From Yponomeuta sedellus (lineage: Eukaryota > Arthropoda > Insecta > Lepidoptera > Yponomeutidae): a stretch of 64,000 nucleotides of DNA. Both the position numbers and the translations under genes were made by a program. The stretch covers positions 15,904,678 through 15,968,677 of the forward strand of contig OW203721.1 of NCBI GenBank assembly GCA_934045075.1. Direction: 5' to 3'. The notes below the pieces were generated by a model that was not told where the DNA came from, searched no databases, and worked only from the letters and a program-made list of their open reading frames with translations. Shown piece by piece: positions 26,089-56,119 of this stretch. Positions within the stretch are counted from its first letter, which is position 1, and every line of letters starts with the position of its first letter.

Positions 26089-26089
26089 A

Positions 26090-27760
26090 TTATATATATA
26101 TAAAGCTACAATGCGATATACTCACTGATCTAACATAATACGTTTTCTCGGAAATGGCACGAGTTGGACGAAAATGATGTATGACAAAGTTGTAGGGAAT
26201 GTATGATATACGGCCATCCTATGGAGCCGATTTTTGAATTTCGAACGCGTTCCACTACGCGAGGGTGCTAACTCTGTCGTTTACCGACCGATTTGGATGA
26301 AATTTTCACCCGGCCTTTTCTTCGACACGCCATTTTCGGTTCCGCCGACGGTCGTTCCAAATTCAAAATACCACCGGAGCTATAGCCCTCCGAAAATCGG
26401 CCTTTTTTCGACCTCTACGCAAAAAAGTCGGCAGCCAACTGGGCGCATGCCAGGGACCAGCCGTAAACGGCATCGTGTCGTCAAAGGACCCAGGTATATG
26501 AGAAAAATCCGACATTCTGACATTTCAAGATGGCGGCTGAGATATTGGCTTTCAAAGGTGTCAAATTTACTATGGAGAATTTCTACAAAAAATTTGTACT
26601 GAAAATCATCTTTTTCGTAGAAAATCTTAATTTTTTTGTACCATCGATAGAGGCTAAGCGCCAAAATGAGTACTTGGCTGAGAATGGCGTCACCACGCCG
26701 AGGTGCTGTGGCATTCCAGTTGGCCATCGACCCATTAAAGTTTGAAAATCACCCACTTTAATAGAAAAATTTCACCCGAAATAGTTATTTTCATACAAAA
26801 ATGCATTTCTTTAGTACCACCGTTGGAGGCCAAAGGCCAAAACTACTACTCGGCTGGGAGCGGCTACTTAGTGCTGAGGTGCTGTGGCATTCCAGTTGGC
26901 CATCGACTCATTAAAGTTTGAAAATCACGCACTATAATAGAAAAAAATCACCCGAAATAGGATTTTTCATACAAAAATGCATTTCTTTAGTACCACCGAC
27001 GGAGGCCAAAGGCCGAAACTACTACTCGGCTGGGAGCGGCTACTTAGTGCCGAGGTGCTGTGGCATTCCAGTTGGCCATCGACCCATTAAAGTTTGAAAA
27101 TCACGCACTTTAATAGAAAAAAATCACCCGAAATAGGATTTTTCATACAAAAATGCATTTCTTTAGTACCACTGACGGAGGCCAAAGGCCGAAACTACTA
27201 CTCGGCTGGGAGCGGCTACTTAGTGCCGAGGTGCTGTGGCGTTCCAGTTGGCCATCGACCCATTAAAGTTTGAAAATCACGCACTTTAATAGAAAATTTT
27301 CACACGAAATAGGATTTTTCATACAAAAATGCATTTCTTTAGTACCACCGACGGAGGCCAAAGGCCGAAACTACTACTCGGCTGGGAGCGGCTACTCAGT
27401 GCCGAGGTGCTGTAGCATTCCAGTTGGCCATCGACTCATCAAAGTTTGAAAATCACCCACTTTAATAGAAAAAAATCACCCGAAATAGGAATTTTCATAC
27501 AAAAATGCATTTTTTTAGTACCACAGGTGGAGGCCAAAGGCCAAAAAAATTGCTCATCTGTGAATGGCATCGTGTCACGTAGATATTTAGGTCCCTGAGA
27601 AAAATCAAACATTTTGAAATTTCCAATTGCCGGCCGAGTTATTGACGATTGATCAAGGCCAACTTTGTATGAACATTTTGTACTGAAAATCGATTTCCTA
27701 TAGAAGCCCTCCGCAAGTACTGCCTGCCGCAAATACCTACCGGGTGAACGACCCGAGTCA
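26090..27760 (+). repeat. First complete 1,671-bp unit and its internal layout
   Basis: Layout of one unit: a head (about 1-380 of the unit) starting with a TATA-like 'tatatatataaag'; a block X (about 26,472-26,615) with 'gagaaaaatccgacattctg' and 'atggcggctgagatattg'; a run of tandem subrepeats of about 176 bp (about 26,560-27,580); a second, diverged copy of block X (about 27,567-27,700, 'gagaaaaatcaaacattttg'); and a short 3' end with a small hairpin 'cgggtgaacgacccg' just before the next unit. The unit lacks the CTAG terminus seen in its relative at 54,900. Internally it is thus a direct-repeat-flanked minisatellite block inside a transposon-like frame. Confidence 0.9.
26701..27580 (+). 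repeat. Five clear 176-bp subrepeats within each unit
   Basis: The phrase 'aggtgctgtggcattccag' and close variants recur at 26,701; 26,877; 27,053; 27,229 and 27,405, exactly 176 bases apart. Each copy also holds 'tacaaaaatgcatttcttta', 'ggaggccaaaggcc' and 'tcggctgggagcggctact'. Copies differ by a few percent inside one unit, while corresponding copies in different units match. More diverged copies flank the block on both sides. The period is close to a nucleosome repeat length. Confidence 0.93.
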
Positions 27761-30700
27761 TTATATATATATAAAGCTACAATGCGATATACTCACTGAT
27801 CTAACATAATACGTTTTCTCGGAAATGGCACGAGTTGGACGAAAATGATGTATGACAAAGTTGTAGGGAATGTATGATATACGGCCATCCTATGGAGCCG
27901 ATTTTTGAATTTCGAACGCGTTCCACTACGCGAGGGTGCTAACTCTGTCGTTTACCGACCGATTTGGATGAAATTTTCACCCGGCCTTTTCTTCGACACG
28001 CCATTTTCGGTTCCGCCGACGGTCGTTCCAAATTCAAAATACCACCGGAGCTATAGCCCTCCGAAAATCGGCCTTTTTTCGACCTCTACGCAAAAAAGTC
28101 GGCAGCCAACTGGGCGCATGCCAGGGACCAGCCGTAAACGGCATCGTGTCGTCAAAGGACCCAGGTATATGAGAAAAATCCGACATTCTGACATTTCAAG
28201 ATGGCGGCTGAGATATTGGCTTTCAAAGGTGTCAAATTTACTATGGAGAATTTCTACAAAAAATTTGTACTGAAAATCATCTTTTTCGTAGAAAATCTTA
28301 ATTTTTTTGTACCATCGATAGAGGCTAAGCGCCAAAATGAGTACTTGGCTGAGAATGGCGTCACCACGCCGAGGTGCTGTGGCATTCCAGTTGGCCATCG
28401 ACCCATTAAAGTTTGAAAATCACCCACTTTAATAGAAAAATTTCACCCGAAATAGTTATTTTCATACAAAAATGCATTTCTTTAGTACCACCGTTGGAGG
28501 CCAAAGGCCAAAACTACTACTCGGCTGGGAGCGGCTACTTAGTGCTGAGGTGCTGTGGCATTCCAGTTGGCCATCGACTCATTAAAGTTTGAAAATCACG
28601 CACTATAATAGAAAAAAATCACCCGAAATAGGATTTTTCATACAAAAATGCATTTCTTTAGTACCACCGACGGAGGCCAAAGGCCGAAACTACTACTCGG
28701 CTGGGAGCGGCTACTTAGTGCCGAGGTGCTGTGGCATTCCAGTTGGCCATCGACCCATTAAAGTTTGAAAATCACGCACTTTAATAGAAAAAAATCACCC
28801 GAAATAGGATTTTTCATACAAAAATGCATTTCTTTAGTACCACTGACGGAGGCCAAAGGCCGAAACTACTACTCGGCTGGGAGCGGCTACTTAGTGCCGA
28901 GGTGCTGTGGCGTTCCAGTTGGCCATCGACCCATTAAAGTTTGAAAATCACGCACTTTAATAGAAAATTTTCACACGAAATAGGATTTTTCATACAAAAA
29001 TGCATTTCTTTAGTACCACCGACGGAGGCCAAAGGCCGAAACTACTACTCGGCTGGGAGCGGCTACTCAGTGCCGAGGTGCTGTAGCATTCCAGTTGGCC
29101 ATCGACTCATCAAAGTTTGAAAATCACCCACTTTAATAGAAAAAAATCACCCGAAATAGGAATTTTCATACAAAAATGCATTTTTTTAGTACCACAGGTG
29201 GAGGCCAAAGGCCAAAAAAATTGCTCATCTGTGAATGGCATCGTGTCACGTAGATATTTAGGTCCCTGAGAAAAATCAAACATTTTGAAATTTCCAATTG
29301 CCGGCCGAGTTATTGACGATTGATCAAGGCCAACTTTGTATGAACATTTTGTACTGAAAATCGATTTCCTATAGAAGCCCTCCGCAAGTACTGCCTGCCG
29401 CAAATACCTACCGGGTGAACGACCCGAGTCATTATATATATATAAAGCTACAATGCGATATACTCACTGATCTAACATAATACGTTTTCTCGGAAATGGC
29501 ACGAGTTGGACGAAAATGATGTATGACAAAGTTGTAGGGAATGTATGATATACGGCCATCCTATGGAGCCGATTTTTGAATTTCGAACGCGTTCCACTAC
29601 GCGAGGGTGCTAACTCTGTCGTTTACCGACCGATTTGGATGAAATTTTCACCCGGCCTTTTCTTCGACACGCCATTTTCGGTTCCGCCGACGGTCGTTCC
29701 AAATTCAAAATACCACCGGAGCTATAGCCCTCCGAAAATCGGCCTTTTTTCGACCTCTACGCAAAAAAGTCGGCAGCCAACTGGGCGCATGCCAGGGACC
29801 AGCCGTAAACGGCATCGTGTCGTCAAAGGACCCAGGTATATGAGAAAAATCCGACATTCTGACATTTCAAGATGGCGGCTGAGATATTGGCTTTCAAAGG
29901 TGTCAAATTTACTATGGAGAATTTCTACAAAAAATTTGTACTGAAAATCATCTTTTTCGTAGAAAATCTTAATTTTTTTGTACCATCGATAGAGGCTAAG
30001 CGCCAAAATGAGTACTTGGCTGAGAATGGCGTCACCACGCCGAGGTGCTGTGGCATTCCAGTTGGCCATCGACCCATTAAAGTTTGAAAATCACCCACTT
30101 TAATAGAAAAATTTCACCCGAAATAGTTATTTTCATACAAAAATGCATTTCTTTAGTACCACCGTTGGAGGCCAAAGGCCAAAACTACTACTCGGCTGGG
30201 AGCGGCTACTTAGTGCTGAGGTGCTGTGGCATTCCAGTTGGCCATCGACTCATTAAAGTTTGAAAATCACGCACTATAATAGAAAAAAATCACCCGAAAT
30301 AGGATTTTTCATACAAAAATGCATTTCTTTAGTACCACCGACGGAGGCCAAAGGCCGAAACTACTACTCGGCTGGGAGCGGCTACTTAGTGCCGAGGTGC
30401 TGTGGCATTCCAGTTGGCCATCGACCCATTAAAGTTTGAAAATCACGCACTTTAATAGAAAAAAATCACCCGAAATAGGATTTTTCATACAAAAATGCAT
30501 TTCTTTAGTACCACTGACGGAGGCCAAAGGCCGAAACTACTACTCGGCTGGGAGCGGCTACTTAGTGCCGAGGTGCTGTGGCGTTCCAGTTGGCCATCGA
30601 CCCATTAAAGTTTGAAAATCACGCACTTTAATAGAAAATTTTCACACGAAATAGGATTTTTCATACAAAAATGCATTTCTTTAGTACCACCGACGGAGGC

Positions 30701-33700
30701 CAAAGGCCGAAACTACTACTCGGCTGGGAGCGGCTACTCAGTGCCGAGGTGCTGTAGCATTCCAGTTGGCCATCGACTCATCAAAGTTTGAAAATCACCC
30801 ACTTTAATAGAAAAAAATCACCCGAAATAGGAATTTTCATACAAAAATGCATTTTTTTAGTACCACAGGTGGAGGCCAAAGGCCAAAAAAATTGCTCATC
30901 TGTGAATGGCATCGTGTCACGTAGATATTTAGGTCCCTGAGAAAAATCAAACATTTTGAAATTTCCAATTGCCGGCCGAGTTATTGACGATTGATCAAGG
31001 CCAACTTTGTATGAACATTTTGTACTGAAAATCGATTTCCTATAGAAGCCCTCCGCAAGTACTGCCTGCCGCAAATACCTACCGGGTGAACGACCCGAGT
31101 CATTATATATATATAAAGCTACAATGCGATATACTCACTGATCTAACATAATACGTTTTCTCGGAAATGGCACGAGTTGGACGAAAATGATGTATGACAA
31201 AGTTGTAGGGAATGTATGATATACGGCCATCCTATGGAGCCGATTTTTGAATTTCGAACGCGTTCCACTACGCGAGGGTGCTAACTCTGTCGTTTACCGA
31301 CCGATTTGGATGAAATTTTCACCCGGCCTTTTCTTCGACACGCCATTTTCGGTTCCGCCGACGGTCGTTCCAAATTCAAAATACCACCGGAGCTATAGCC
31401 CTCCGAAAATCGGCCTTTTTTCGACCTCTACGCAAAAAAGTCGGCAGCCAACTGGGCGCATGCCAGGGACCAGCCGTAAACGGCATCGTGTCGTCAAAGG
31501 ACCCAGGTATATGAGAAAAATCCGACATTCTGACATTTCAAGATGGCGGCTGAGATATTGGCTTTCAAAGGTGTCAAATTTACTATGGAGAATTTCTACA
31601 AAAAATTTGTACTGAAAATCATCTTTTTCGTAGAAAATCTTAATTTTTTTGTACCATCGATAGAGGCTAAGCGCCAAAATGAGTACTTGGCTGAGAATGG
31701 CGTCACCACGCCGAGGTGCTGTGGCATTCCAGTTGGCCATCGACCCATTAAAGTTTGAAAATCACCCACTTTAATAGAAAAATTTCACCCGAAATAGTTA
31801 TTTTCATACAAAAATGCATTTCTTTAGTACCACCGTTGGAGGCCAAAGGCCAAAACTACTACTCGGCTGGGAGCGGCTACTTAGTGCTGAGGTGCTGTGG
31901 CATTCCAGTTGGCCATCGACTCATTAAAGTTTGAAAATCACGCACTATAATAGAAAAAAATCACCCGAAATAGGATTTTTCATACAAAAATGCATTTCTT
32001 TAGTACCACCGACGGAGGCCAAAGGCCGAAACTACTACTCGGCTGGGAGCGGCTACTTAGTGCCGAGGTGCTGTGGCATTCCAGTTGGCCATCGACCCAT
32101 TAAAGTTTGAAAATCACGCACTTTAATAGAAAAAAATCACCCGAAATAGGATTTTTCATACAAAAATGCATTTCTTTAGTACCACTGACGGAGGCCAAAG
32201 GCCGAAACTACTACTCGGCTGGGAGCGGCTACTTAGTGCCGAGGTGCTGTGGCGTTCCAGTTGGCCATCGACCCATTAAAGTTTGAAAATCACGCACTTT
32301 AATAGAAAATTTTCACACGAAATAGGATTTTTCATACAAAAATGCATTTCTTTAGTACCACCGACGGAGGCCAAAGGCCGAAACTACTACTCGGCTGGGA
32401 GCGGCTACTCAGTGCCGAGGTGCTGTAGCATTCCAGTTGGCCATCGACTCATCAAAGTTTGAAAATCACCCACTTTAATAGAAAAAAATCACCCGAAATA
32501 GGAATTTTCATACAAAAATGCATTTTTTTAGTACCACAGGTGGAGGCCAAAGGCCAAAAAAATTGCTCATCTGTGAATGGCATCGTGTCACGTAGATATT
32601 TAGGTCCCTGAGAAAAATCAAACATTTTGAAATTTCCAATTGCCGGCCGAGTTATTGACGATTGATCAAGGCCAACTTTGTATGAACATTTTGTACTGAA
32701 AATCGATTTCCTATAGAAGCCCTCCGCAAGTACTGCCTGCCGCAAATACCTACCGGGTGAACGACCCGAGTCATTATATATATATAAAGCTACAATGCGA
32801 TATACTCACTGATCTAACATAATACGTTTTCTCGGAAATGGCACGAGTTGGACGAAAATGATGTATGACAAAGTTGTAGGGAATGTATGATATACGGCCA
32901 TCCTATGGAGCCGATTTTTGAATTTCGAACGCGTTCCACTACGCGAGGGTGCTAACTCTGTCGTTTACCGACCGATTTGGATGAAATTTTCACCCGGCCT
33001 TTTCTTCGACACGCCATTTTCGGTTCCGCCGACGGTCGTTCCAAATTCAAAATACCACCGGAGCTATAGCCCTCCGAAAATCGGCCTTTTTTCGACCTCT
33101 ACGCAAAAAAGTCGGCAGCCAACTGGGCGCATGCCAGGGACCAGCCGTAAACGGCATCGTGTCGTCAAAGGACCCAGGTATATGAGAAAAATCCGACATT
33201 CTGACATTTCAAGATGGCGGCTGAGATATTGGCTTTCAAAGGTGTCAAATTTACTATGGAGAATTTCTACAAAAAATTTGTACTGAAAATCATCTTTTTC
33301 GTAGAAAATCTTAATTTTTTTGTACCATCGATAGAGGCTAAGCGCCAAAATGAGTACTTGGCTGAGAATGGCGTCACCACGCCGAGGTGCTGTGGCATTC
33401 CAGTTGGCCATCGACCCATTAAAGTTTGAAAATCACCCACTTTAATAGAAAAATTTCACCCGAAATAGTTATTTTCATACAAAAATGCATTTCTTTAGTA
33501 CCACCGTTGGAGGCCAAAGGCCAAAACTACTACTCGGCTGGGAGCGGCTACTTAGTGCTGAGGTGCTGTGGCATTCCAGTTGGCCATCGACTCATTAAAG
33601 TTTGAAAATCACGCACTATAATAGAAAAAAATCACCCGAAATAGGATTTTTCATACAAAAATGCATTTCTTTAGTACCACCGACGGAGGCCAAAGGCCGA

Positions 33701-36700
33701 AACTACTACTCGGCTGGGAGCGGCTACTTAGTGCCGAGGTGCTGTGGCATTCCAGTTGGCCATCGACCCATTAAAGTTTGAAAATCACGCACTTTAATAG
33801 AAAAAAATCACCCGAAATAGGATTTTTCATACAAAAATGCATTTCTTTAGTACCACTGACGGAGGCCAAAGGCCGAAACTACTACTCGGCTGGGAGCGGC
33901 TACTTAGTGCCGAGGTGCTGTGGCGTTCCAGTTGGCCATCGACCCATTAAAGTTTGAAAATCACGCACTTTAATAGAAAATTTTCACACGAAATAGGATT
34001 TTTCATACAAAAATGCATTTCTTTAGTACCACCGACGGAGGCCAAAGGCCGAAACTACTACTCGGCTGGGAGCGGCTACTCAGTGCCGAGGTGCTGTAGC
34101 ATTCCAGTTGGCCATCGACTCATCAAAGTTTGAAAATCACCCACTTTAATAGAAAAAAATCACCCGAAATAGGAATTTTCATACAAAAATGCATTTTTTT
34201 AGTACCACAGGTGGAGGCCAAAGGCCAAAAAAATTGCTCATCTGTGAATGGCATCGTGTCACGTAGATATTTAGGTCCCTGAGAAAAATCAAACATTTTG
34301 AAATTTCCAATTGCCGGCCGAGTTATTGACGATTGATCAAGGCCAACTTTGTATGAACATTTTGTACTGAAAATCGATTTCCTATAGAAGCCCTCCGCAA
34401 GTACTGCCTGCCGCAAATACCTACCGGGTGAACGACCCGAGTCATTATATATATATAAAGCTACAATGCGATATACTCACTGATCTAACATAATACGTTT
34501 TCTCGGAAATGGCACGAGTTGGACGAAAATGATGTATGACAAAGTTGTAGGGAATGTATGATATACGGCCATCCTATGGAGCCGATTTTTGAATTTCGAA
34601 CGCGTTCCACTACGCGAGGGTGCTAACTCTGTCGTTTACCGACCGATTTGGATGAAATTTTCACCCGGCCTTTTCTTCGACACGCCATTTTCGGTTCCGC
34701 CGACGGTCGTTCCAAATTCAAAATACCACCGGAGCTATAGCCCTCCGAAAATCGGCCTTTTTTCGACCTCTACGCAAAAAAGTCGGCAGCCAACTGGGCG
34801 CATGCCAGGGACCAGCCGTAAACGGCATCGTGTCGTCAAAGGACCCAGGTATATGAGAAAAATCCGACATTCTGACATTTCAAGATGGCGGCTGAGATAT
34901 TGGCTTTCAAAGGTGTCAAATTTACTATGGAGAATTTCTACAAAAAATTTGTACTGAAAATCATCTTTTTCGTAGAAAATCTTAATTTTTTTGTACCATC
35001 GATAGAGGCTAAGCGCCAAAATGAGTACTTGGCTGAGAATGGCGTCACCACGCCGAGGTGCTGTGGCATTCCAGTTGGCCATCGACCCATTAAAGTTTGA
35101 AAATCACCCACTTTAATAGAAAAATTTCACCCGAAATAGTTATTTTCATACAAAAATGCATTTCTTTAGTACCACCGTTGGAGGCCAAAGGCCAAAACTA
35201 CTACTCGGCTGGGAGCGGCTACTTAGTGCTGAGGTGCTGTGGCATTCCAGTTGGCCATCGACTCATTAAAGTTTGAAAATCACGCACTATAATAGAAAAA
35301 AATCACCCGAAATAGGATTTTTCATACAAAAATGCATTTCTTTAGTACCACCGACGGAGGCCAAAGGCCGAAACTACTACTCGGCTGGGAGCGGCTACTT
35401 AGTGCCGAGGTGCTGTGGCATTCCAGTTGGCCATCGACCCATTAAAGTTTGAAAATCACGCACTTTAATAGAAAAAAATCACCCGAAATAGGATTTTTCA
35501 TACAAAAATGCATTTCTTTAGTACCACTGACGGAGGCCAAAGGCCGAAACTACTACTCGGCTGGGAGCGGCTACTTAGTGCCGAGGTGCTGTGGCGTTCC
35601 AGTTGGCCATCGACCCATTAAAGTTTGAAAATCACGCACTTTAATAGAAAATTTTCACACGAAATAGGATTTTTCATACAAAAATGCATTTCTTTAGTAC
35701 CACCGACGGAGGCCAAAGGCCGAAACTACTACTCGGCTGGGAGCGGCTACTCAGTGCCGAGGTGCTGTAGCATTCCAGTTGGCCATCGACTCATCAAAGT
35801 TTGAAAATCACCCACTTTAATAGAAAAAAATCACCCGAAATAGGAATTTTCATACAAAAATGCATTTTTTTAGTACCACAGGTGGAGGCCAAAGGCCAAA
35901 AAAATTGCTCATCTGTGAATGGCATCGTGTCACGTAGATATTTAGGTCCCTGAGAAAAATCAAACATTTTGAAATTTCCAATTGCCGGCCGAGTTATTGA
36001 CGATTGATCAAGGCCAACTTTGTATGAACATTTTGTACTGAAAATCGATTTCCTATAGAAGCCCTCCGCAAGTACTGCCTGCCGCAAATACCTACCGGGT
36101 GAACGACCCGAGTCATTATATATATATAAAGCTACAATGCGATATACTCACTGATCTAACATAATACGTTTTCTCGGAAATGGCACGAGTTGGACGAAAA
36201 TGATGTATGACAAAGTTGTAGGGAATGTATGATATACGGCCATCCTATGGAGCCGATTTTTGAATTTCGAACGCGTTCCACTACGCGAGGGTGCTAACTC
36301 TGTCGTTTACCGACCGATTTGGATGAAATTTTCACCCGGCCTTTTCTTCGACACGCCATTTTCGGTTCCGCCGACGGTCGTTCCAAATTCAAAATACCAC
36401 CGGAGCTATAGCCCTCCGAAAATCGGCCTTTTTTCGACCTCTACGCAAAAAAGTCGGCAGCCAACTGGGCGCATGCCAGGGACCAGCCGTAAACGGCATC
36501 GTGTCGTCAAAGGACCCAGGTATATGAGAAAAATCCGACATTCTGACATTTCAAGATGGCGGCTGAGATATTGGCTTTCAAAGGTGTCAAATTTACTATG
36601 GAGAATTTCTACAAAAAATTTGTACTGAAAATCATCTTTTTCGTAGAAAATCTTAATTTTTTTGTACCATCGATAGAGGCTAAGCGCCAAAATGAGTACT

Positions 36701-39700
36701 TGGCTGAGAATGGCGTCACCACGCCGAGGTGCTGTGGCATTCCAGTTGGCCATCGACCCATTAAAGTTTGAAAATCACCCACTTTAATAGAAAAATTTCA
36801 CCCGAAATAGTTATTTTCATACAAAAATGCATTTCTTTAGTACCACCGTTGGAGGCCAAAGGCCAAAACTACTACTCGGCTGGGAGCGGCTACTTAGTGC
36901 TGAGGTGCTGTGGCATTCCAGTTGGCCATCGACTCATTAAAGTTTGAAAATCACGCACTATAATAGAAAAAAATCACCCGAAATAGGATTTTTCATACAA
37001 AAATGCATTTCTTTAGTACCACCGACGGAGGCCAAAGGCCGAAACTACTACTCGGCTGGGAGCGGCTACTTAGTGCCGAGGTGCTGTGGCATTCCAGTTG
37101 GCCATCGACCCATTAAAGTTTGAAAATCACGCACTTTAATAGAAAAAAATCACCCGAAATAGGATTTTTCATACAAAAATGCATTTCTTTAGTACCACTG
37201 ACGGAGGCCAAAGGCCGAAACTACTACTCGGCTGGGAGCGGCTACTTAGTGCCGAGGTGCTGTGGCGTTCCAGTTGGCCATCGACCCATTAAAGTTTGAA
37301 AATCACGCACTTTAATAGAAAATTTTCACACGAAATAGGATTTTTCATACAAAAATGCATTTCTTTAGTACCACCGACGGAGGCCAAAGGCCGAAACTAC
37401 TACTCGGCTGGGAGCGGCTACTCAGTGCCGAGGTGCTGTAGCATTCCAGTTGGCCATCGACTCATCAAAGTTTGAAAATCACCCACTTTAATAGAAAAAA
37501 ATCACCCGAAATAGGAATTTTCATACAAAAATGCATTTTTTTAGTACCACAGGTGGAGGCCAAAGGCCAAAAAAATTGCTCATCTGTGAATGGCATCGTG
37601 TCACGTAGATATTTAGGTCCCTGAGAAAAATCAAACATTTTGAAATTTCCAATTGCCGGCCGAGTTATTGACGATTGATCAAGGCCAACTTTGTATGAAC
37701 ATTTTGTACTGAAAATCGATTTCCTATAGAAGCCCTCCGCAAGTACTGCCTGCCGCAAATACCTACCGGGTGAACGACCCGAGTCATTATATATATATAA
37801 AGCTACAATGCGATATACTCACTGATCTAACATAATACGTTTTCTCGGAAATGGCACGAGTTGGACGAAAATGATGTATGACAAAGTTGTAGGGAATGTA
37901 TGATATACGGCCATCCTATGGAGCCGATTTTTGAATTTCGAACGCGTTCCACTACGCGAGGGTGCTAACTCTGTCGTTTACCGACCGATTTGGATGAAAT
38001 TTTCACCCGGCCTTTTCTTCGACACGCCATTTTCGGTTCCGCCGACGGTCGTTCCAAATTCAAAATACCACCGGAGCTATAGCCCTCCGAAAATCGGCCT
38101 TTTTTCGACCTCTACGCAAAAAAGTCGGCAGCCAACTGGGCGCATGCCAGGGACCAGCCGTAAACGGCATCGTGTCGTCAAAGGACCCAGGTATATGAGA
38201 AAAATCCGACATTCTGACATTTCAAGATGGCGGCTGAGATATTGGCTTTCAAAGGTGTCAAATTTACTATGGAGAATTTCTACAAAAAATTTGTACTGAA
38301 AATCATCTTTTTCGTAGAAAATCTTAATTTTTTTGTACCATCGATAGAGGCTAAGCGCCAAAATGAGTACTTGGCTGAGAATGGCGTCACCACGCCGAGG
38401 TGCTGTGGCATTCCAGTTGGCCATCGACCCATTAAAGTTTGAAAATCACCCACTTTAATAGAAAAATTTCACCCGAAATAGTTATTTTCATACAAAAATG
38501 CATTTCTTTAGTACCACCGTTGGAGGCCAAAGGCCAAAACTACTACTCGGCTGGGAGCGGCTACTTAGTGCTGAGGTGCTGTGGCATTCCAGTTGGCCAT
38601 CGACTCATTAAAGTTTGAAAATCACGCACTATAATAGAAAAAAATCACCCGAAATAGGATTTTTCATACAAAAATGCATTTCTTTAGTACCACCGACGGA
38701 GGCCAAAGGCCGAAACTACTACTCGGCTGGGAGCGGCTACTTAGTGCCGAGGTGCTGTGGCATTCCAGTTGGCCATCGACCCATTAAAGTTTGAAAATCA
38801 CGCACTTTAATAGAAAAAAATCACCCGAAATAGGATTTTTCATACAAAAATGCATTTCTTTAGTACCACTGACGGAGGCCAAAGGCCGAAACTACTACTC
38901 GGCTGGGAGCGGCTACTTAGTGCCGAGGTGCTGTGGCGTTCCAGTTGGCCATCGACCCATTAAAGTTTGAAAATCACGCACTTTAATAGAAAATTTTCAC
39001 ACGAAATAGGATTTTTCATACAAAAATGCATTTCTTTAGTACCACCGACGGAGGCCAAAGGCCGAAACTACTACTCGGCTGGGAGCGGCTACTCAGTGCC
39101 GAGGTGCTGTAGCATTCCAGTTGGCCATCGACTCATCAAAGTTTGAAAATCACCCACTTTAATAGAAAAAAATCACCCGAAATAGGAATTTTCATACAAA
39201 AATGCATTTTTTTAGTACCACAGGTGGAGGCCAAAGGCCAAAAAAATTGCTCATCTGTGAATGGCATCGTGTCACGTAGATATTTAGGTCCCTGAGAAAA
39301 ATCAAACATTTTGAAATTTCCAATTGCCGGCCGAGTTATTGACGATTGATCAAGGCCAACTTTGTATGAACATTTTGTACTGAAAATCGATTTCCTATAG
39401 AAGCCCTCCGCAAGTACTGCCTGCCGCAAATACCTACCGGGTGAACGACCCGAGTCATTATATATATATAAAGCTACAATGCGATATACTCACTGATCTA
39501 ACATAATACGTTTTCTCGGAAATGGCACGAGTTGGACGAAAATGATGTATGACAAAGTTGTAGGGAATGTATGATATACGGCCATCCTATGGAGCCGATT
39601 TTTGAATTTCGAACGCGTTCCACTACGCGAGGGTGCTAACTCTGTCGTTTACCGACCGATTTGGATGAAATTTTCACCCGGCCTTTTCTTCGACACGCCA

Positions 39701-42700
39701 TTTTCGGTTCCGCCGACGGTCGTTCCAAATTCAAAATACCACCGGAGCTATAGCCCTCCGAAAATCGGCCTTTTTTCGACCTCTACGCAAAAAAGTCGGC
39801 AGCCAACTGGGCGCATGCCAGGGACCAGCCGTAAACGGCATCGTGTCGTCAAAGGACCCAGGTATATGAGAAAAATCCGACATTCTGACATTTCAAGATG
39901 GCGGCTGAGATATTGGCTTTCAAAGGTGTCAAATTTACTATGGAGAATTTCTACAAAAAATTTGTACTGAAAATCATCTTTTTCGTAGAAAATCTTAATT
40001 TTTTTGTACCATCGATAGAGGCTAAGCGCCAAAATGAGTACTTGGCTGAGAATGGCGTCACCACGCCGAGGTGCTGTGGCATTCCAGTTGGCCATCGACC
40101 CATTAAAGTTTGAAAATCACCCACTTTAATAGAAAAATTTCACCCGAAATAGTTATTTTCATACAAAAATGCATTTCTTTAGTACCACCGTTGGAGGCCA
40201 AAGGCCAAAACTACTACTCGGCTGGGAGCGGCTACTTAGTGCTGAGGTGCTGTGGCATTCCAGTTGGCCATCGACTCATTAAAGTTTGAAAATCACGCAC
40301 TATAATAGAAAAAAATCACCCGAAATAGGATTTTTCATACAAAAATGCATTTCTTTAGTACCACCGACGGAGGCCAAAGGCCGAAACTACTACTCGGCTG
40401 GGAGCGGCTACTTAGTGCCGAGGTGCTGTGGCATTCCAGTTGGCCATCGACCCATTAAAGTTTGAAAATCACGCACTTTAATAGAAAAAAATCACCCGAA
40501 ATAGGATTTTTCATACAAAAATGCATTTCTTTAGTACCACTGACGGAGGCCAAAGGCCGAAACTACTACTCGGCTGGGAGCGGCTACTTAGTGCCGAGGT
40601 GCTGTGGCGTTCCAGTTGGCCATCGACCCATTAAAGTTTGAAAATCACGCACTTTAATAGAAAATTTTCACACGAAATAGGATTTTTCATACAAAAATGC
40701 ATTTCTTTAGTACCACCGACGGAGGCCAAAGGCCGAAACTACTACTCGGCTGGGAGCGGCTACTCAGTGCCGAGGTGCTGTAGCATTCCAGTTGGCCATC
40801 GACTCATCAAAGTTTGAAAATCACCCACTTTAATAGAAAAAAATCACCCGAAATAGGAATTTTCATACAAAAATGCATTTTTTTAGTACCACAGGTGGAG
40901 GCCAAAGGCCAAAAAAATTGCTCATCTGTGAATGGCATCGTGTCACGTAGATATTTAGGTCCCTGAGAAAAATCAAACATTTTGAAATTTCCAATTGCCG
41001 GCCGAGTTATTGACGATTGATCAAGGCCAACTTTGTATGAACATTTTGTACTGAAAATCGATTTCCTATAGAAGCCCTCCGCAAGTACTGCCTGCCGCAA
41101 ATACCTACCGGGTGAACGACCCGAGTCATTATATATATATAAAGCTACAATGCGATATACTCACTGATCTAACATAATACGTTTTCTCGGAAATGGCACG
41201 AGTTGGACGAAAATGATGTATGACAAAGTTGTAGGGAATGTATGATATACGGCCATCCTATGGAGCCGATTTTTGAATTTCGAACGCGTTCCACTACGCG
41301 AGGGTGCTAACTCTGTCGTTTACCGACCGATTTGGATGAAATTTTCACCCGGCCTTTTCTTCGACACGCCATTTTCGGTTCCGCCGACGGTCGTTCCAAA
41401 TTCAAAATACCACCGGAGCTATAGCCCTCCGAAAATCGGCCTTTTTTCGACCTCTACGCAAAAAAGTCGGCAGCCAACTGGGCGCATGCCAGGGACCAGC
41501 CGTAAACGGCATCGTGTCGTCAAAGGACCCAGGTATATGAGAAAAATCCGACATTCTGACATTTCAAGATGGCGGCTGAGATATTGGCTTTCAAAGGTGT
41601 CAAATTTACTATGGAGAATTTCTACAAAAAATTTGTACTGAAAATCATCTTTTTCGTAGAAAATCTTAATTTTTTTGTACCATCGATAGAGGCTAAGCGC
41701 CAAAATGAGTACTTGGCTGAGAATGGCGTCACCACGCCGAGGTGCTGTGGCATTCCAGTTGGCCATCGACCCATTAAAGTTTGAAAATCACCCACTTTAA
41801 TAGAAAAATTTCACCCGAAATAGTTATTTTCATACAAAAATGCATTTCTTTAGTACCACCGTTGGAGGCCAAAGGCCAAAACTACTACTCGGCTGGGAGC
41901 GGCTACTTAGTGCTGAGGTGCTGTGGCATTCCAGTTGGCCATCGACTCATTAAAGTTTGAAAATCACGCACTATAATAGAAAAAAATCACCCGAAATAGG
42001 ATTTTTCATACAAAAATGCATTTCTTTAGTACCACCGACGGAGGCCAAAGGCCGAAACTACTACTCGGCTGGGAGCGGCTACTTAGTGCCGAGGTGCTGT
42101 GGCATTCCAGTTGGCCATCGACCCATTAAAGTTTGAAAATCACGCACTTTAATAGAAAAAAATCACCCGAAATAGGATTTTTCATACAAAAATGCATTTC
42201 TTTAGTACCACTGACGGAGGCCAAAGGCCGAAACTACTACTCGGCTGGGAGCGGCTACTTAGTGCCGAGGTGCTGTGGCGTTCCAGTTGGCCATCGACCC
42301 ATTAAAGTTTGAAAATCACGCACTTTAATAGAAAATTTTCACACGAAATAGGATTTTTCATACAAAAATGCATTTCTTTAGTACCACCGACGGAGGCCAA
42401 AGGCCGAAACTACTACTCGGCTGGGAGCGGCTACTCAGTGCCGAGGTGCTGTAGCATTCCAGTTGGCCATCGACTCATCAAAGTTTGAAAATCACCCACT
42501 TTAATAGAAAAAAATCACCCGAAATAGGAATTTTCATACAAAAATGCATTTTTTTAGTACCACAGGTGGAGGCCAAAGGCCAAAAAAATTGCTCATCTGT
42601 GAATGGCATCGTGTCACGTAGATATTTAGGTCCCTGAGAAAAATCAAACATTTTGAAATTTCCAATTGCCGGCCGAGTTATTGACGATTGATCAAGGCCA

Positions 42701-45700
42701 ACTTTGTATGAACATTTTGTACTGAAAATCGATTTCCTATAGAAGCCCTCCGCAAGTACTGCCTGCCGCAAATACCTACCGGGTGAACGACCCGAGTCAT
42801 TATATATATATAAAGCTACAATGCGATATACTCACTGATCTAACATAATACGTTTTCTCGGAAATGGCACGAGTTGGACGAAAATGATGTATGACAAAGT
42901 TGTAGGGAATGTATGATATACGGCCATCCTATGGAGCCGATTTTTGAATTTCGAACGCGTTCCACTACGCGAGGGTGCTAACTCTGTCGTTTACCGACCG
43001 ATTTGGATGAAATTTTCACCCGGCCTTTTCTTCGACACGCCATTTTCGGTTCCGCCGACGGTCGTTCCAAATTCAAAATACCACCGGAGCTATAGCCCTC
43101 CGAAAATCGGCCTTTTTTCGACCTCTACGCAAAAAAGTCGGCAGCCAACTGGGCGCATGCCAGGGACCAGCCGTAAACGGCATCGTGTCGTCAAAGGACC
43201 CAGGTATATGAGAAAAATCCGACATTCTGACATTTCAAGATGGCGGCTGAGATATTGGCTTTCAAAGGTGTCAAATTTACTATGGAGAATTTCTACAAAA
43301 AATTTGTACTGAAAATCATCTTTTTCGTAGAAAATCTTAATTTTTTTGTACCATCGATAGAGGCTAAGCGCCAAAATGAGTACTTGGCTGAGAATGGCGT
43401 CACCACGCCGAGGTGCTGTGGCATTCCAGTTGGCCATCGACCCATTAAAGTTTGAAAATCACCCACTTTAATAGAAAAATTTCACCCGAAATAGTTATTT
43501 TCATACAAAAATGCATTTCTTTAGTACCACCGTTGGAGGCCAAAGGCCAAAACTACTACTCGGCTGGGAGCGGCTACTTAGTGCTGAGGTGCTGTGGCAT
43601 TCCAGTTGGCCATCGACTCATTAAAGTTTGAAAATCACGCACTATAATAGAAAAAAATCACCCGAAATAGGATTTTTCATACAAAAATGCATTTCTTTAG
43701 TACCACCGACGGAGGCCAAAGGCCGAAACTACTACTCGGCTGGGAGCGGCTACTTAGTGCCGAGGTGCTGTGGCATTCCAGTTGGCCATCGACCCATTAA
43801 AGTTTGAAAATCACGCACTTTAATAGAAAAAAATCACCCGAAATAGGATTTTTCATACAAAAATGCATTTCTTTAGTACCACTGACGGAGGCCAAAGGCC
43901 GAAACTACTACTCGGCTGGGAGCGGCTACTTAGTGCCGAGGTGCTGTGGCGTTCCAGTTGGCCATCGACCCATTAAAGTTTGAAAATCACGCACTTTAAT
44001 AGAAAATTTTCACACGAAATAGGATTTTTCATACAAAAATGCATTTCTTTAGTACCACCGACGGAGGCCAAAGGCCGAAACTACTACTCGGCTGGGAGCG
44101 GCTACTCAGTGCCGAGGTGCTGTAGCATTCCAGTTGGCCATCGACTCATCAAAGTTTGAAAATCACCCACTTTAATAGAAAAAAATCACCCGAAATAGGA
44201 ATTTTCATACAAAAATGCATTTTTTTAGTACCACAGGTGGAGGCCAAAGGCCAAAAAAATTGCTCATCTGTGAATGGCATCGTGTCACGTAGATATTTAG
44301 GTCCCTGAGAAAAATCAAACATTTTGAAATTTCCAATTGCCGGCCGAGTTATTGACGATTGATCAAGGCCAACTTTGTATGAACATTTTGTACTGAAAAT
44401 CGATTTCCTATAGAAGCCCTCCGCAAGTACTGCCTGCCGCAAATACCTACCGGGTGAACGACCCGAGTCATTATATATATATAAAGCTACAATGCGATAT
44501 ACTCACTGATCTAACATAATACGTTTTCTCGGAAATGGCACGAGTTGGACGAAAATGATGTATGACAAAGTTGTAGGGAATGTATGATATACGGCCATCC
44601 TATGGAGCCGATTTTTGAATTTCGAACGCGTTCCACTACGCGAGGGTGCTAACTCTGTCGTTTACCGACCGATTTGGATGAAATTTTCACCCGGCCTTTT
44701 CTTCGACACGCCATTTTCGGTTCCGCCGACGGTCGTTCCAAATTCAAAATACCACCGGAGCTATAGCCCTCCGAAAATCGGCCTTTTTTCGACCTCTACG
44801 CAAAAAAGTCGGCAGCCAACTGGGCGCATGCCAGGGACCAGCCGTAAACGGCATCGTGTCGTCAAAGGACCCAGGTATATGAGAAAAATCCGACATTCTG
44901 ACATTTCAAGATGGCGGCTGAGATATTGGCTTTCAAAGGTGTCAAATTTACTATGGAGAATTTCTACAAAAAATTTGTACTGAAAATCATCTTTTTCGTA
45001 GAAAATCTTAATTTTTTTGTACCATCGATAGAGGCTAAGCGCCAAAATGAGTACTTGGCTGAGAATGGCGTCACCACGCCGAGGTGCTGTGGCATTCCAG
45101 TTGGCCATCGACCCATTAAAGTTTGAAAATCACCCACTTTAATAGAAAAATTTCACCCGAAATAGTTATTTTCATACAAAAATGCATTTCTTTAGTACCA
45201 CCGTTGGAGGCCAAAGGCCAAAACTACTACTCGGCTGGGAGCGGCTACTTAGTGCTGAGGTGCTGTGGCATTCCAGTTGGCCATCGACTCATTAAAGTTT
45301 GAAAATCACGCACTATAATAGAAAAAAATCACCCGAAATAGGATTTTTCATACAAAAATGCATTTCTTTAGTACCACCGACGGAGGCCAAAGGCCGAAAC
45401 TACTACTCGGCTGGGAGCGGCTACTTAGTGCCGAGGTGCTGTGGCATTCCAGTTGGCCATCGACCCATTAAAGTTTGAAAATCACGCACTTTAATAGAAA
45501 AAAATCACCCGAAATAGGATTTTTCATACAAAAATGCATTTCTTTAGTACCACTGACGGAGGCCAAAGGCCGAAACTACTACTCGGCTGGGAGCGGCTAC
45601 TTAGTGCCGAGGTGCTGTGGCGTTCCAGTTGGCCATCGACCCATTAAAGTTTGAAAATCACGCACTTTAATAGAAAATTTTCACACGAAATAGGATTTTT

Positions 45701-48700
45701 CATACAAAAATGCATTTCTTTAGTACCACCGACGGAGGCCAAAGGCCGAAACTACTACTCGGCTGGGAGCGGCTACTCAGTGCCGAGGTGCTGTAGCATT
45801 CCAGTTGGCCATCGACTCATCAAAGTTTGAAAATCACCCACTTTAATAGAAAAAAATCACCCGAAATAGGAATTTTCATACAAAAATGCATTTTTTTAGT
45901 ACCACAGGTGGAGGCCAAAGGCCAAAAAAATTGCTCATCTGTGAATGGCATCGTGTCACGTAGATATTTAGGTCCCTGAGAAAAATCAAACATTTTGAAA
46001 TTTCCAATTGCCGGCCGAGTTATTGACGATTGATCAAGGCCAACTTTGTATGAACATTTTGTACTGAAAATCGATTTCCTATAGAAGCCCTCCGCAAGTA
46101 CTGCCTGCCGCAAATACCTACCGGGTGAACGACCCGAGTCATTATATATATATAAAGCTACAATGCGATATACTCACTGATCTAACATAATACGTTTTCT
46201 CGGAAATGGCACGAGTTGGACGAAAATGATGTATGACAAAGTTGTAGGGAATGTATGATATACGGCCATCCTATGGAGCCGATTTTTGAATTTCGAACGC
46301 GTTCCACTACGCGAGGGTGCTAACTCTGTCGTTTACCGACCGATTTGGATGAAATTTTCACCCGGCCTTTTCTTCGACACGCCATTTTCGGTTCCGCCGA
46401 CGGTCGTTCCAAATTCAAAATACCACCGGAGCTATAGCCCTCCGAAAATCGGCCTTTTTTCGACCTCTACGCAAAAAAGTCGGCAGCCAACTGGGCGCAT
46501 GCCAGGGACCAGCCGTAAACGGCATCGTGTCGTCAAAGGACCCAGGTATATGAGAAAAATCCGACATTCTGACATTTCAAGATGGCGGCTGAGATATTGG
46601 CTTTCAAAGGTGTCAAATTTACTATGGAGAATTTCTACAAAAAATTTGTACTGAAAATCATCTTTTTCGTAGAAAATCTTAATTTTTTTGTACCATCGAT
46701 AGAGGCTAAGCGCCAAAATGAGTACTTGGCTGAGAATGGCGTCACCACGCCGAGGTGCTGTGGCATTCCAGTTGGCCATCGACCCATTAAAGTTTGAAAA
46801 TCACCCACTTTAATAGAAAAATTTCACCCGAAATAGTTATTTTCATACAAAAATGCATTTCTTTAGTACCACCGTTGGAGGCCAAAGGCCAAAACTACTA
46901 CTCGGCTGGGAGCGGCTACTTAGTGCTGAGGTGCTGTGGCATTCCAGTTGGCCATCGACTCATTAAAGTTTGAAAATCACGCACTATAATAGAAAAAAAT
47001 CACCCGAAATAGGATTTTTCATACAAAAATGCATTTCTTTAGTACCACCGACGGAGGCCAAAGGCCGAAACTACTACTCGGCTGGGAGCGGCTACTTAGT
47101 GCCGAGGTGCTGTGGCATTCCAGTTGGCCATCGACCCATTAAAGTTTGAAAATCACGCACTTTAATAGAAAAAAATCACCCGAAATAGGATTTTTCATAC
47201 AAAAATGCATTTCTTTAGTACCACTGACGGAGGCCAAAGGCCGAAACTACTACTCGGCTGGGAGCGGCTACTTAGTGCCGAGGTGCTGTGGCGTTCCAGT
47301 TGGCCATCGACCCATTAAAGTTTGAAAATCACGCACTTTAATAGAAAATTTTCACACGAAATAGGATTTTTCATACAAAAATGCATTTCTTTAGTACCAC
47401 CGACGGAGGCCAAAGGCCGAAACTACTACTCGGCTGGGAGCGGCTACTCAGTGCCGAGGTGCTGTAGCATTCCAGTTGGCCATCGACTCATCAAAGTTTG
47501 AAAATCACCCACTTTAATAGAAAAAAATCACCCGAAATAGGAATTTTCATACAAAAATGCATTTTTTTAGTACCACAGGTGGAGGCCAAAGGCCAAAAAA
47601 ATTGCTCATCTGTGAATGGCATCGTGTCACGTAGATATTTAGGTCCCTGAGAAAAATCAAACATTTTGAAATTTCCAATTGCCGGCCGAGTTATTGACGA
47701 TTGATCAAGGCCAACTTTGTATGAACATTTTGTACTGAAAATCGATTTCCTATAGAAGCCCTCCGCAAGTACTGCCTGCCGCAAATACCTACCGGGTGAA
47801 CGACCCGAGTCATTATATATATATAAAGCTACAATGCGATATACTCACTGATCTAACATAATACGTTTTCTCGGAAATGGCACGAGTTGGACGAAAATGA
47901 TGTATGACAAAGTTGTAGGGAATGTATGATATACGGCCATCCTATGGAGCCGATTTTTGAATTTCGAACGCGTTCCACTACGCGAGGGTGCTAACTCTGT
48001 CGTTTACCGACCGATTTGGATGAAATTTTCACCCGGCCTTTTCTTCGACACGCCATTTTCGGTTCCGCCGACGGTCGTTCCAAATTCAAAATACCACCGG
48101 AGCTATAGCCCTCCGAAAATCGGCCTTTTTTCGACCTCTACGCAAAAAAGTCGGCAGCCAACTGGGCGCATGCCAGGGACCAGCCGTAAACGGCATCGTG
48201 TCGTCAAAGGACCCAGGTATATGAGAAAAATCCGACATTCTGACATTTCAAGATGGCGGCTGAGATATTGGCTTTCAAAGGTGTCAAATTTACTATGGAG
48301 AATTTCTACAAAAAATTTGTACTGAAAATCATCTTTTTCGTAGAAAATCTTAATTTTTTTGTACCATCGATAGAGGCTAAGCGCCAAAATGAGTACTTGG
48401 CTGAGAATGGCGTCACCACGCCGAGGTGCTGTGGCATTCCAGTTGGCCATCGACCCATTAAAGTTTGAAAATCACCCACTTTAATAGAAAAATTTCACCC
48501 GAAATAGTTATTTTCATACAAAAATGCATTTCTTTAGTACCACCGTTGGAGGCCAAAGGCCAAAACTACTACTCGGCTGGGAGCGGCTACTTAGTGCTGA
48601 GGTGCTGTGGCATTCCAGTTGGCCATCGACTCATTAAAGTTTGAAAATCACGCACTATAATAGAAAAAAATCACCCGAAATAGGATTTTTCATACAAAAA

Positions 48701-49483
48701 TGCATTTCTTTAGTACCACCGACGGAGGCCAAAGGCCGAAACTACTACTCGGCTGGGAGCGGCTACTTAGTGCCGAGGTGCTGTGGCATTCCAGTTGGCC
48801 ATCGACCCATTAAAGTTTGAAAATCACGCACTTTAATAGAAAAAAATCACCCGAAATAGGATTTTTCATACAAAAATGCATTTCTTTAGTACCACTGACG
48901 GAGGCCAAAGGCCGAAACTACTACTCGGCTGGGAGCGGCTACTTAGTGCCGAGGTGCTGTGGCGTTCCAGTTGGCCATCGACCCATTAAAGTTTGAAAAT
49001 CACGCACTTTAATAGAAAATTTTCACACGAAATAGGATTTTTCATACAAAAATGCATTTCTTTAGTACCACCGACGGAGGCCAAAGGCCGAAACTACTAC
49101 TCGGCTGGGAGCGGCTACTCAGTGCCGAGGTGCTGTAGCATTCCAGTTGGCCATCGACTCATCAAAGTTTGAAAATCACCCACTTTAATAGAAAAAAATC
49201 ACCCGAAATAGGAATTTTCATACAAAAATGCATTTTTTTAGTACCACAGGTGGAGGCCAAAGGCCAAAAAAATTGCTCATCTGTGAATGGCATCGTGTCA
49301 CGTAGATATTTAGGTCCCTGAGAAAAATCAAACATTTTGAAATTTCCAATTGCCGGCCGAGTTATTGACGATTGATCAAGGCCAACTTTGTATGAACATT
49401 TTGTACTGAAAATCGATTTCCTATAGAAGCCCTCCGCAAGTACTGCCTGCCGCAAATACCTACCGGGTGAACGACCCGAGTCA

Positions 49484-49735
49484 TTATATATATATAAAGC
49501 TACAATGCGATATACTCACTGATCTAACATAATACGTTTTCTCGGAAATGGCACGAGTTGGACGAAAATGATGTATGACAAAGTTGTAGGGAATGTATGA
49601 TATACGGCCATCCTATGGAGCCGATTTTTGAATTTCGAACGCGTTCCACTACGCGAGGGTGCTAACTCTGTCGTTTACCGACCGATTTGGATGAAATTTT
49701 CACCCGGCCTTTTCTTCGACACGCCATTTTCGGTT
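49484..49735 (+). repeat. Truncated fifteenth unit at the array edge
   Basis: Bases 49,484-49,735 match the first 252 bases of the unit, then the sequence changes abruptly to unrelated DNA ('ataattctaagtctcg'). The 3' end of the parental element is therefore missing from this side of the array. Confidence 0.93.
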
Positions 49736-49965
49736 ATAATTCTAAGTCTCGTTTTTTCCGGCTCGAAGGACCAACTTCAAAAAAAATTATTAACTCAAAC
49801 TTTAATGCGGCCAATATAATTAATTACTGAAATGTTTAAAAAATGTTTAAAAAAACGCTTCTTAATGATTTAATTAAATGTTTAAGTGACTTTTTGAGTG
49901 GTTGAAAACAATATGCAATAATGAAACAATTCACGGAACGCAGCAGAATTAGTATTAACTGTTAA

Positions 49966-50456
49966 GGCCCCAGTACACATTGGCCCATCCTGGCCCACTT
50001 TTGTCATGGCCATTGTGTACAGTGCAGGCAATGGTGTGTAGTGGCGGACACTAATTTGTCCATCGTGGCGCGCAATCGGAAAGTTGTCGGTTTTTTGGAC
50101 ACACTTCAAAGGAATCGTGGCGTAGCGTGGCCCGTCCGTGTTCACAGTGTCCTATTGTTTAGTTCGTCACTGACCGCTGCGCTTACAGGGATGATCATTG
50201 GTCATAGAGTACTTTTTTGTTGCGATGATTTTTTGTAAAAATACTTGAGTTTTAAATCGTTCAAAATATCCTTATGCCACAATGAAGATAAATCAATAGA
50301 CCTTCAAGTTTATTGATTTATCTGAGCCCGTAATTTTGCACATTTTGCGGCATTTTTTTTAATAACTTGGTGGTGTACATACTTCTGTAACACTTGTAAA
50401 TAAATAAAATAAAATAAGTAAATAAAATAAATTTCTGGCCATTGTGTACTGGGGCC
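49966..50456. mobile_element. 491-bp MITE with GGCCCCAGTACAC inverted ends
   Basis: The left end 'ggccccagtacacattggcc' and the right end 'ggccattgtgtactggggcc' are inverted repeats of about 20 bp with one mismatch. The copy is flanked by TTAA (49,962-49,965) and TTTA (50,457-50,460). A TTAA target would fit a piggyBac-related element, but the right flank is imperfect, so this is only a suggestion. The interior holds short tandem-like 'tggcccatcctggcccac' phrases and a small hairpin at 50,288-50,323. No transposase is encoded. Confidence 0.75.
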
Positions 50457-50487
50457 TTTACTTGAGTTGTTGATACTGATTTTTTAT

Positions 50488-50545
50488 TTTCAGCCGACTT
50501 TTAAAAAGAAGGAAGTTCTCAGTTCGCTATTGTCTTTTTGTTTTT
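50488..50545 (+). repeat. Fragment of a common lepidopteran interspersed repeat
   Basis: The phrase 'cagccgacttttaaaaagaa' followed by 'ggaagttctcagttcg' resembles a repeat phrase frequent in moth and butterfly genomes. Only a short fragment is present. Confidence 0.4.
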
Positions 50546-51783
50546 GTATTTAAATATTTTTTTTTATATGATTTTAATGTTTACTAGAAGAGATGTGGTC
50601 TACAGGTGGTCCCATAATCACTAATTAAGGGTCTGATGATGGGTTTGAAATCGAGGGAACTCTTTTGTGGTTGAGAGCCTGAAGTGATTTGTTTATTTGA
50701 TATAGTGACATGTTCATTTGCTTTCGGAGTACACAATTTTGCGGAGCCGTAATGATAGTCACAAAACATTTAAAAATATATTTTAAACGAATAAAAATCT
50801 GATTGTAGTTGAGAATGTTTTTGTTTTTATTTTTTTCAAGTCGTTTTCCATTTTTAAAGACAAATATTTTTTCTATATCCGTATCCGTTCTGACGGGATC
50901 GAATAGCAGCAGTGTTGCCAAATTAGGCAATTTATCTGTATTTAAGTTATCTCGAAAGCTGAAATGACAAAAATTTAAACCTGCTCATCCATTTTTCGGT
51001 GACATTCGGGCAATTATCATGTCTTTAGATTTGAAAGATTATTTACTAAGTATTGAACTGTACGGTTTTGATATGTAATAAAAAACGTAGATGTTCTTTT
51101 AATTTACATGAAAAGGTATTTTTATATTTTTTAGACGGAATGAGCAAAAAATGGTCAAGTACGACTTGGACTTAGAATGTTATTTAAACTAAAATACTTT
51201 TTAAGATTTTTTCTTAATAATTAAATTTTTTTTACGTTACATAGCACATTAGTACCCATATTAGTATTTTTGTACTCGAGTAATTCGTCTTGAAATAATT
51301 TATTATTTTTGTTCAAGACAAAGCTGTATTTATTGTGGCACTAACCTTATTTAAAGTTACAGACGACAGCTGATCAATCTTAGCATTACTGTTAAAAAGT
51401 TGATTTTAAGTTATTGATGTGATGAGTGTGCTCATATTTTAAAAGTGAACGTGCTTTTGAGCGAATCTTATATGATTTAAAAATAGATATAGTGTCACCT
51501 TTCACATTCAATACTATCACCTTCAGCACCTTTTGGTGTCTTCAAATTACTAAAGCATAATTTAAAAAAATAATTTGTTTTTGAGTTGATAGATATAGCT
51601 AAATCGTAGTACAGCATATTTTATTAGTTTGGTTTTTCGTAAATGTTATGAAAATATTGGAAACAAACAAAATAGGTACCATACTGTTTTATGCGGCTCA
51701 AGTATATTCATCTACTACAGATATATTTTACGGTGATTCTGGCAACACAATCTGGCGACGCTGAATCCCGCCAATATTTGATT
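50546..51783. other. AT-rich DNA, no gene recognised
   Basis: Only short open frames, without recognisable content. Several poly-T and poly-A runs are present. Confidence 0.3.
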
Positions 51784-51993
51784 GATATGATATGATATGA
51801 TATGATATGATATGATATGATATGATATGATATGATATGATATGATATGATATGATATGATATGATATGATATGATATGATATGATATGATATGATATGA
51901 TATGATATGATATGATATGATATGATATGATATGATATGATATGATATGATATGATATGATATGATATGATATGATATGATATGATATGATAT
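51784..51993. repeat. Pentanucleotide microsatellite (TATGA)n, about 42 copies
   Basis: About 210 bases of uninterrupted 5-base repeat. On the minus strand it reads (TCATA)n and directly follows 'ctcaataaatatatcata', so it sits exactly at the 3' end of the LINE remnant at 51,994-52,440 and probably grew from that element's terminal repeat. Confidence 0.95.
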
Positions 51994-52440
51994 ATTTATT
52001 GAGCTTCCTTGTTGTATAAAAGATGTTACATAAAAGAAAAACTAGAACTAAACAAGGACCCTGCAAGGGCGCCGCTAAAATTAAGTTATATTTATAACCT
52101 AAATTAAACTTAACTCTATTTACAATGTACATTTCTATACATAAATATACACAATTATAACTATTTTATCCAATGAAAATTTATTTACAATCTCATATTA
52201 CTGTCATGCTCATCGATAAAATCTTTCAACGTATAGTAACATTTTTCGTTCAAGTATTGACTAAGAGCTTTTTTGAATACGTTAGGTTTTTCTATTATCT
52301 GGATATTTTTCGGTAAGTAGTTGTAAATTTTCGCGGCCATTGACTGTGGGCCAGAATTAACTAAATGAAGTTTTGATGAGCATGTTGCTAATCTACTGTT
52401 TGAAAGCGTCACTTTTTCTTCTTCCTTTCGTACATTGTGC
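51994..52440 (-). mobile_element. LINE reverse transcriptase C-terminus and 3' UTR
   Basis: The minus-strand frame 52,185-52,412 encodes 75 residues including 'AAKIYNYLPKNIQIIEKPNV' and 'KALSQYLNEKCYYTLKDF', the pattern seen at the very C-terminus of non-LTR retrotransposon polymerases: a Leu-Pro pair, a Phe-Lys patch, then Cys/Gly-Tyr-Tyr and an acidic end. After the stop come about 190 bases of 3' UTR with an AATAAA at the end, then the (TCATA)n tail. The rest of the polymerase is absent, a typical 5' truncation. Related to the copy at 58,717-59,065. Confidence 0.75.
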
Positions 52441-52598
52441 GTGGCGGAATTACGTTTTGAAGTGAAAAGAAGCTTGTTTGTGTGATTACAGAATAAGTAA
52501 ACTGCTGATTTACCTATCTACCTAATGCATTTTCGTCAAAAGTTGTTACCTACTGAATTTCTTACAGTAGTTATCTACTTACTAAGAAATTAGGTTAA

Positions 52599-52641
52599 CT
52601 TTACTGTACATTTATTATGATTTAATAAATGTACAGTAAAG
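52599..52641. repeat. Near-perfect hairpin, 19-bp arms
   Basis: 'ctttactgtacatttatta' is followed after a 4-5 base loop by its reverse complement (52,623-52,641). It is AT-rich and unexplained by neighbouring features. Confidence 0.75.
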
Positions 52642-56116: not shown

Positions 56117-56119
56117 TTA

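Follow-up and report, generated by a model that had tools for sequence, protein, structure and literature searches.

A Helitron-like composite element with a fourteen-copy array of its tail-less front module in Yponomeuta sedellus

The window analyzed here is a 64,000-nucleotide stretch of the lepidopteran Yponomeuta sedellus (contig OW203721.1), corresponding to C36:15904678-15968677 of the genome assembly that we searched (57 contigs, 657.5 Mb). On the plus strand it carries a composite insertion of Helitron-like type. The front module, here called Z, is tail-less and expanded, and is followed by two further elements, V and Y. Comparison of the window with itself at a lag of 1,671 bp gave unbroken identity from 26089 to 48064, with zero mismatches, and the exact repeat spans 26089-49735 (23,647 bp, or 14.15 periods). 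In the phase of the element, 14 Z units of 1,671 bp lie head to tail at 26090-49483 and are all identical. The next 252 bp match the start of a unit, and base 26089 is a host A that matches the repeat by chance. These data bear out the original observation of fourteen complete units with a constant period over ∼23.6 kb, and the comparison of units that it called for turned up no differences among the 14. The unit translations are identical, as was claimed, because the unit DNA is identical. Protein coding by Z is unsupported, since its 122-amino-acid open reading frame (ORF) has neither a Pfam match nor a protein relative at E ≤ 0.001. An Rfam search returned tRNA-like matches only, and no relatives of the array were found in pattern scans of viral contigs or a distant search of phage records.

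The right edge of the repeat, 49735, had been taken as a biological boundary. In fact, 49484-49735 is the beginning of V, a different and longer element of 5,416 bp (49484-54899, plus strand) with a Y-like tail ending in CTAG, recognized by means of a 3,068-bp homologue on C19 and a locus on C6. The first 252 bp of V are identical to Z, and the greater part of the V body does not match Z. Because the C19 homologue has the identical 252-bp break into V, we dropped the reading of 49484-49735 as a fifteenth unit with a random 3′ truncation caused by premature rolling-circle termination. At their 5′ ends, across 1,461 aligned columns, V and its C19 homologue are 91% identical; for the last 189 bp the figure is 99%. 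In the V stretches L059 and L063, the only stop-to-stop frame of at least 130 amino acids is one of Z sequence. V also contains a (TGATA) microsatellite of 43 copies (51779-51993) and two frames (53066-53338 and 52185-52517) that resemble decayed retrotransposon ends.

Y occupies 54900-56116 (1,217 bp, plus strand), as defined by repeat and alignment analysis and by two single Y copies elsewhere in the genome. Over its 5′-most 500 bp, Y is 78% identical to Z. The cores of the two elements differ: Y has 153-bp repeats at 55418-55986, whereas each Z unit contains a 176-bp repeat (4.8 copies, 94% matches by Tandem Repeats Finder), found at 26697-27546 on the plus strand in the first Z and reflected in unit lengths across loci. 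Y ends in a terminator (56082-56117, plus strand), in which a double GC hairpin and CTAG (56113-56116) are followed by a host T at 56117. This terminator folds at −15.0 kcal/mol as DNA, and none of 200 shuffles folds as well. V and Y both end in CTAG with the same hairpin sequence, in line with the CTRR and GC hairpin at the 3′ end of Helitrons. Z has no such end. Its 3′ end, identified by folding (27741-27760, plus strand, in the first unit), is a hairpin followed by AGTCA, and none of the 17 plus-strand CTRR sites in Z folds stronger than −5.1 kcal/mol. Fold strength alone is not decisive here, because the ends of X1 (56120-56298) and X2 (56299-56477) also fold weakly. The latter are short Helitron-like elements (TC...CTAG) that lie head to tail without a spacer; a third, partial copy of this type is present near 21292-21465.

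Insertion between A and T, typical of Helitrons, is evident at the borders. An A precedes the terminus TTATATATATATAAAGC at 10 of the 11 array starts read (in the window, the plus-strand A at 26089) and also at the C6 locus, and T follows the terminator in 9 of 9 cases. The 5′ terminus inferred in the arrays, TTATATATATATAAAGC, does not begin with TC, and for this reason we class the array element as Helitron-like and not as a canonical Helitron. Both single Y copies have host DNA on their flanks, and one lacks the first 9 bp. At the single Y in L068 (C2:3127801-3131300), the 5′ context is GTTA followed directly by TCTTTATATATATATAAAGC, which could represent an older, canonical form of the 5′ end, with TC after A; A followed by TCTTTATATA at a single Y is likewise a possible older form.

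The family is widespread. The 17-base Z hairpin, CGGGTGAACGACCCGAG, occurs 1,056 times in the genome (575 forward, 481 reverse), compared to zero for the reversed-pattern control. CGGGTGAACGACCCGAGTC followed by a base other than A occurs nowhere in the genome, although the number of the 1,056 matches that keep TC was uncounted. One hundred listed places among these matches fall into 12 loci on C1, C2 and the first part of C3. Among the places listed, spacings are often constant per locus and differ between loci in steps of ∼176 bp (1145, 1320, 1496, 1672). We examined 13 array loci whole or at their edges (11 of these 12, the C19 array and the window), as well as pieces of C5, C6 and C24 and three further single places. 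This set does not extend to the C3:679993-722147 array, to part of the interior of A3 and the interiors of A6, A8 and A9, or to the majority of the 1,056 Z ends. Without exception, evaluable Z ends lead into another 5′ terminus (71 of 71, with two more cut off). Terminator ends behave differently: of 35 evaluable, 26 are followed by a 5′ terminus (three of them reassigned by hand) and nine by host T, and one further end is cut off. Over the first 500 bp of Z, units differ on average by 0.5% within arrays (442 pairs, mostly from A2, the window and C19) and by 2.2% between arrays (445 pairs of distinct units, minimum 0). Long tandem arrays and concerted evolution, the hallmarks of satellite DNA, are thus both present. 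The array at 16.79 Mb on C2 has the direct repeat TTCTAATATAAGGC in both host flanks (L050 1227-1240 and L062 4268-4281); direct repeats at the flanks are not expected from Helitrons. A 34-mer from the Z/V front has many matches, with irregular and regular spacings, at C5:17348751-17444215 (∼95 kb) and C3:8109970-8298697 (∼190 kb), which are probably larger mixed arrays or clusters; the pieces examined amount to 1.9 kb of the first region and 4.7 kb of the second.

A 34-mer was discarded as a window-specific 5′ haplotype marker, having 388 genomic matches, and a core 58-mer was used instead. The 58-mer, present in all 14 window Z units, occurs 17 times in the genome: 14 times in the window and once each on C5, C6 and C24. 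The C6 copy starts at host DNA (CTTATCTTA followed by TTATATA) and has a single Z with one mismatch in 1,671 bp relative to the window Z. This Z passes directly into V, with one mismatch relative to the window V over the 1,820 bp examined, giving two differences in 3,491 bp. The 209 bp of C6 flank examined strongly match the left flank of the window only via a dispersed tRNA-like repeat, which is similar to those in the window. Compared with the window Z, the C24 unit shows 37 mismatches. In the C5 stretch the 5′ end is missing, and its two main BLAST pieces show 27 mismatches in 1,360 bp and 45 in 1,149 bp. A gapped end-to-end alignment shows 5 mismatches in 1,574 aligned bases, with gaps uncounted, and hence C5 may represent a closely related copy whose core is rearranged. 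Given a butterfly mutation rate of 2.9e-9 per site and generation, zero differences in 23.6 kb correspond to an upper bound of ∼44,000 generations, a rough guide that ignores gene conversion. The one-copy C6 locus and the fourteen-copy window together give a recent snapshot of a mobile element turning into satellite DNA. The earlier proposal of recent amplification or concerted evolution of a Helitron-related unit, to be sought on other chromosomes, holds with respect to the Helitron-like character, the recent change in copy number and the occurrence elsewhere; it needs revision in that the unit is part of a larger composite element.

Signs of exchange between units come from other arrays. Array A2 on C1 has 24 complete units of seven kinds, in the order a b c c c c d e a f a f a f a f a f a a a g a a. 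Kind a is present 11 times, f five times and c four times, g is a with one change, and five (a f) dimers make up a higher-order repeat. Unit e sits between the c/d block and the a/f block. Relative to c, it shows zero mismatches over the first 485 bases and 17 thereafter, with 176 gap columns over the unit; relative to f, it shows four mismatches, all at or before base 123 and none from base 124 on, and one gap column. Its position between the two blocks is the one expected of a crossover product. The V front is identical to a local Z in five of seven cases. Four of these agree over 252 bp, namely the window, C19, A2 and the second of the V-like units in A3, the last being recognized as V along just 324 bp. 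The fifth is A8, where the 120 bp that could be compared agree with the second local Z. In A3, the front of the first V differs from local Z by 1 base; in A1, the difference is 14-15 bases. V bodies group differently from V fronts. Among the arrays compared, A2 has the V body most similar to that of the window (13 mismatches), whereas the window front equals the local Z and is set apart from its A2 counterpart by 5 base differences and 2 gap columns; the A8 V body comes nearest to the bodies in C19 and A1, with 8 mismatches to each. Local matching of fronts combined with discordant bodies is a sign of exchange between front ends.

The mosaic unit e, the dimeric higher-order repeat of A2 and the locally matching V fronts imply that homologous exchange is needed in the history of the arrays. 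We consider it probable that Z, as the front module of a Helitron-like composite, was expanded by unequal exchange. Z would have no terminator of its own, and the composite would end at the hairpin-CTAG tail of V/Y type. Rolling-circle copying accounts for the precise head-to-tail joints and for the mobility of a module without a terminator, and it may have made the first tandem Z copies. Several points weigh against expansion by exchange. The window array contains no mosaic unit, and the window data alone do not separate rolling-circle copying from exchange. Moreover, the C6 V front is identical to that of the window (320 of 320 bases), so any exchange at the window V front predates the present 14 units, and local homogenization is weakened as evidence for growth of the window array.

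The strongest competitor, that rolling-circle amplification produced the array, strikes us as possible but on balance doubtful. It would account for many 5′ ends ahead of terminators, precise head-to-tail joins and 14 identical units, and the lack of a mosaic unit in the window fits it as well. In Helraiser, the left end is indispensable whereas the right end is not an absolute requirement, circles are produced, and copying runs on where the hairpin is missing (PMC4778049). This same model has been set out for plant arrays in a review (PMC12628747). Against this stand A2 unit e and the A2 dimers, which need homologous exchange, and the V fronts that match the local Z while V bodies group otherwise. 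We think it unlikely that the array is real and the number 14 is a product of assembly over-expansion or collapse. Read overlap cannot fix the copy number, because there are zero differences over 23.4 kb, and the sister locus has one Z. However, heterogeneity was resolved in A2, where 11 of 12 units of 1,672 bp are identical and one has a single-base variant, and where an ordered higher-order repeat is seen. Independent, repeated insertion of Helitron-like elements at the AT-rich front of an earlier copy is highly improbable: X1 and X2 do lie head to tail, and AT-rich spacers separate some units, but Z shows no 3′ terminus of its own, and such insertions would not be expected to agree in all 14 copies when the arrays themselves are not alike. 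A satellite of the ordinary kind, unconnected with transposons, as a long-period array with internal short repeats might suggest, is scarcely credible given the precise insertion borders between A and T, the GC hairpin-CTAG tails, the single Y copies and the dispersed arrays. In most cases, the change from transposon to satellite has to be reconstructed from remnants that have already decayed. Here, a single genome contains both the one-copy and the fourteen-copy state of an almost unchanged element, together with other arrays that show higher-order repeats and a unit that appears to record a crossover. As these states coexist, rolling-circle amplification and unequal exchange can be tested against each other.

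Other features of the window lie outside the composite. An uninterrupted 301-amino-acid SdhB-like ORF (8713-9618, minus strand) shares 66-69% identity with the first three lepidopteran relatives that bear names, and 82% and 78% with two others. Among the 120 relatives listed, those named in the first 67 rows are all from moths or butterflies, with flies from row 68 on; the ORF is possibly a diverged retrocopy or paralogue. A mariner-like transposase ORF with a DDE_3 match lies at 16313-17152 (minus strand). Five tRNA-like matches fall in dispersed repeats (10726-10799, 15090-15163, 20851-20919, 56878-56946 and 57191-57249), which probably represent a tRNA-derived short interspersed element.

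Rolling-circle elements have been connected with satellite DNA before. Drosophila DINE-TR1 is reportedly a non-autonomous rolling-circle element with an internal tandem core that feeds satellite DNA. The oyster Helentron-borne satellite-like repeats are described, in a passage of the relevant report, as non-autonomous rolling-circle elements whose internal tandem cores also feed satellite DNA (PMC7492417). In both cases the internal core expands, whereas here the whole front module is the array unit. Like Helraiser/Helibat, the elements described here have a 3′ hairpin near a CTAG end as terminator. Helraiser depends on its left end, less strictly on its right, and shows both read-through past a missing terminator and circles with head-to-tail junctions (PMC4778049). 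In contrast to that system, the 5′ end here is TT rather than TC, and no transposase was found in the V stretches L059 and L063. Tandem Helitron clusters in Myotis lucifugus and Bombyx mori, the latter lepidopteran, are thought to arise by bypassed termination, and the passage on them gives no unit-level grammar or evidence of homogenization (PMC4067079). A silkworm survey lists 21 Helitron families, and its main text does not use the word "tandem" (PMC3789558). None of the titles and abstract openings listed in searches of the open-licence literature concerned alternating arrays of the Z/V/Y kind in Lepidoptera, which is not proof of absence. A close parallel is found in plant centromeres, where, according to a review, truncated Helitrons form tandem arrays that range from several up to several hundred repeats, and many of them have more than one 5′ end but a single 3′ end (PMC12628747, citing Xiong, Dooner and Du 2016). 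The Yponomeuta arrays resemble these in their tandem, truncated elements and may share the multiple 5′ ends with a single 3′ end. Differences from the plant arrays, as described there, include the lepidopteran host, the dispersed distribution of the arrays across the assembly, the alternation of two or three module types, and the presence elsewhere in the same genome of a near-identical copy with a single Z.
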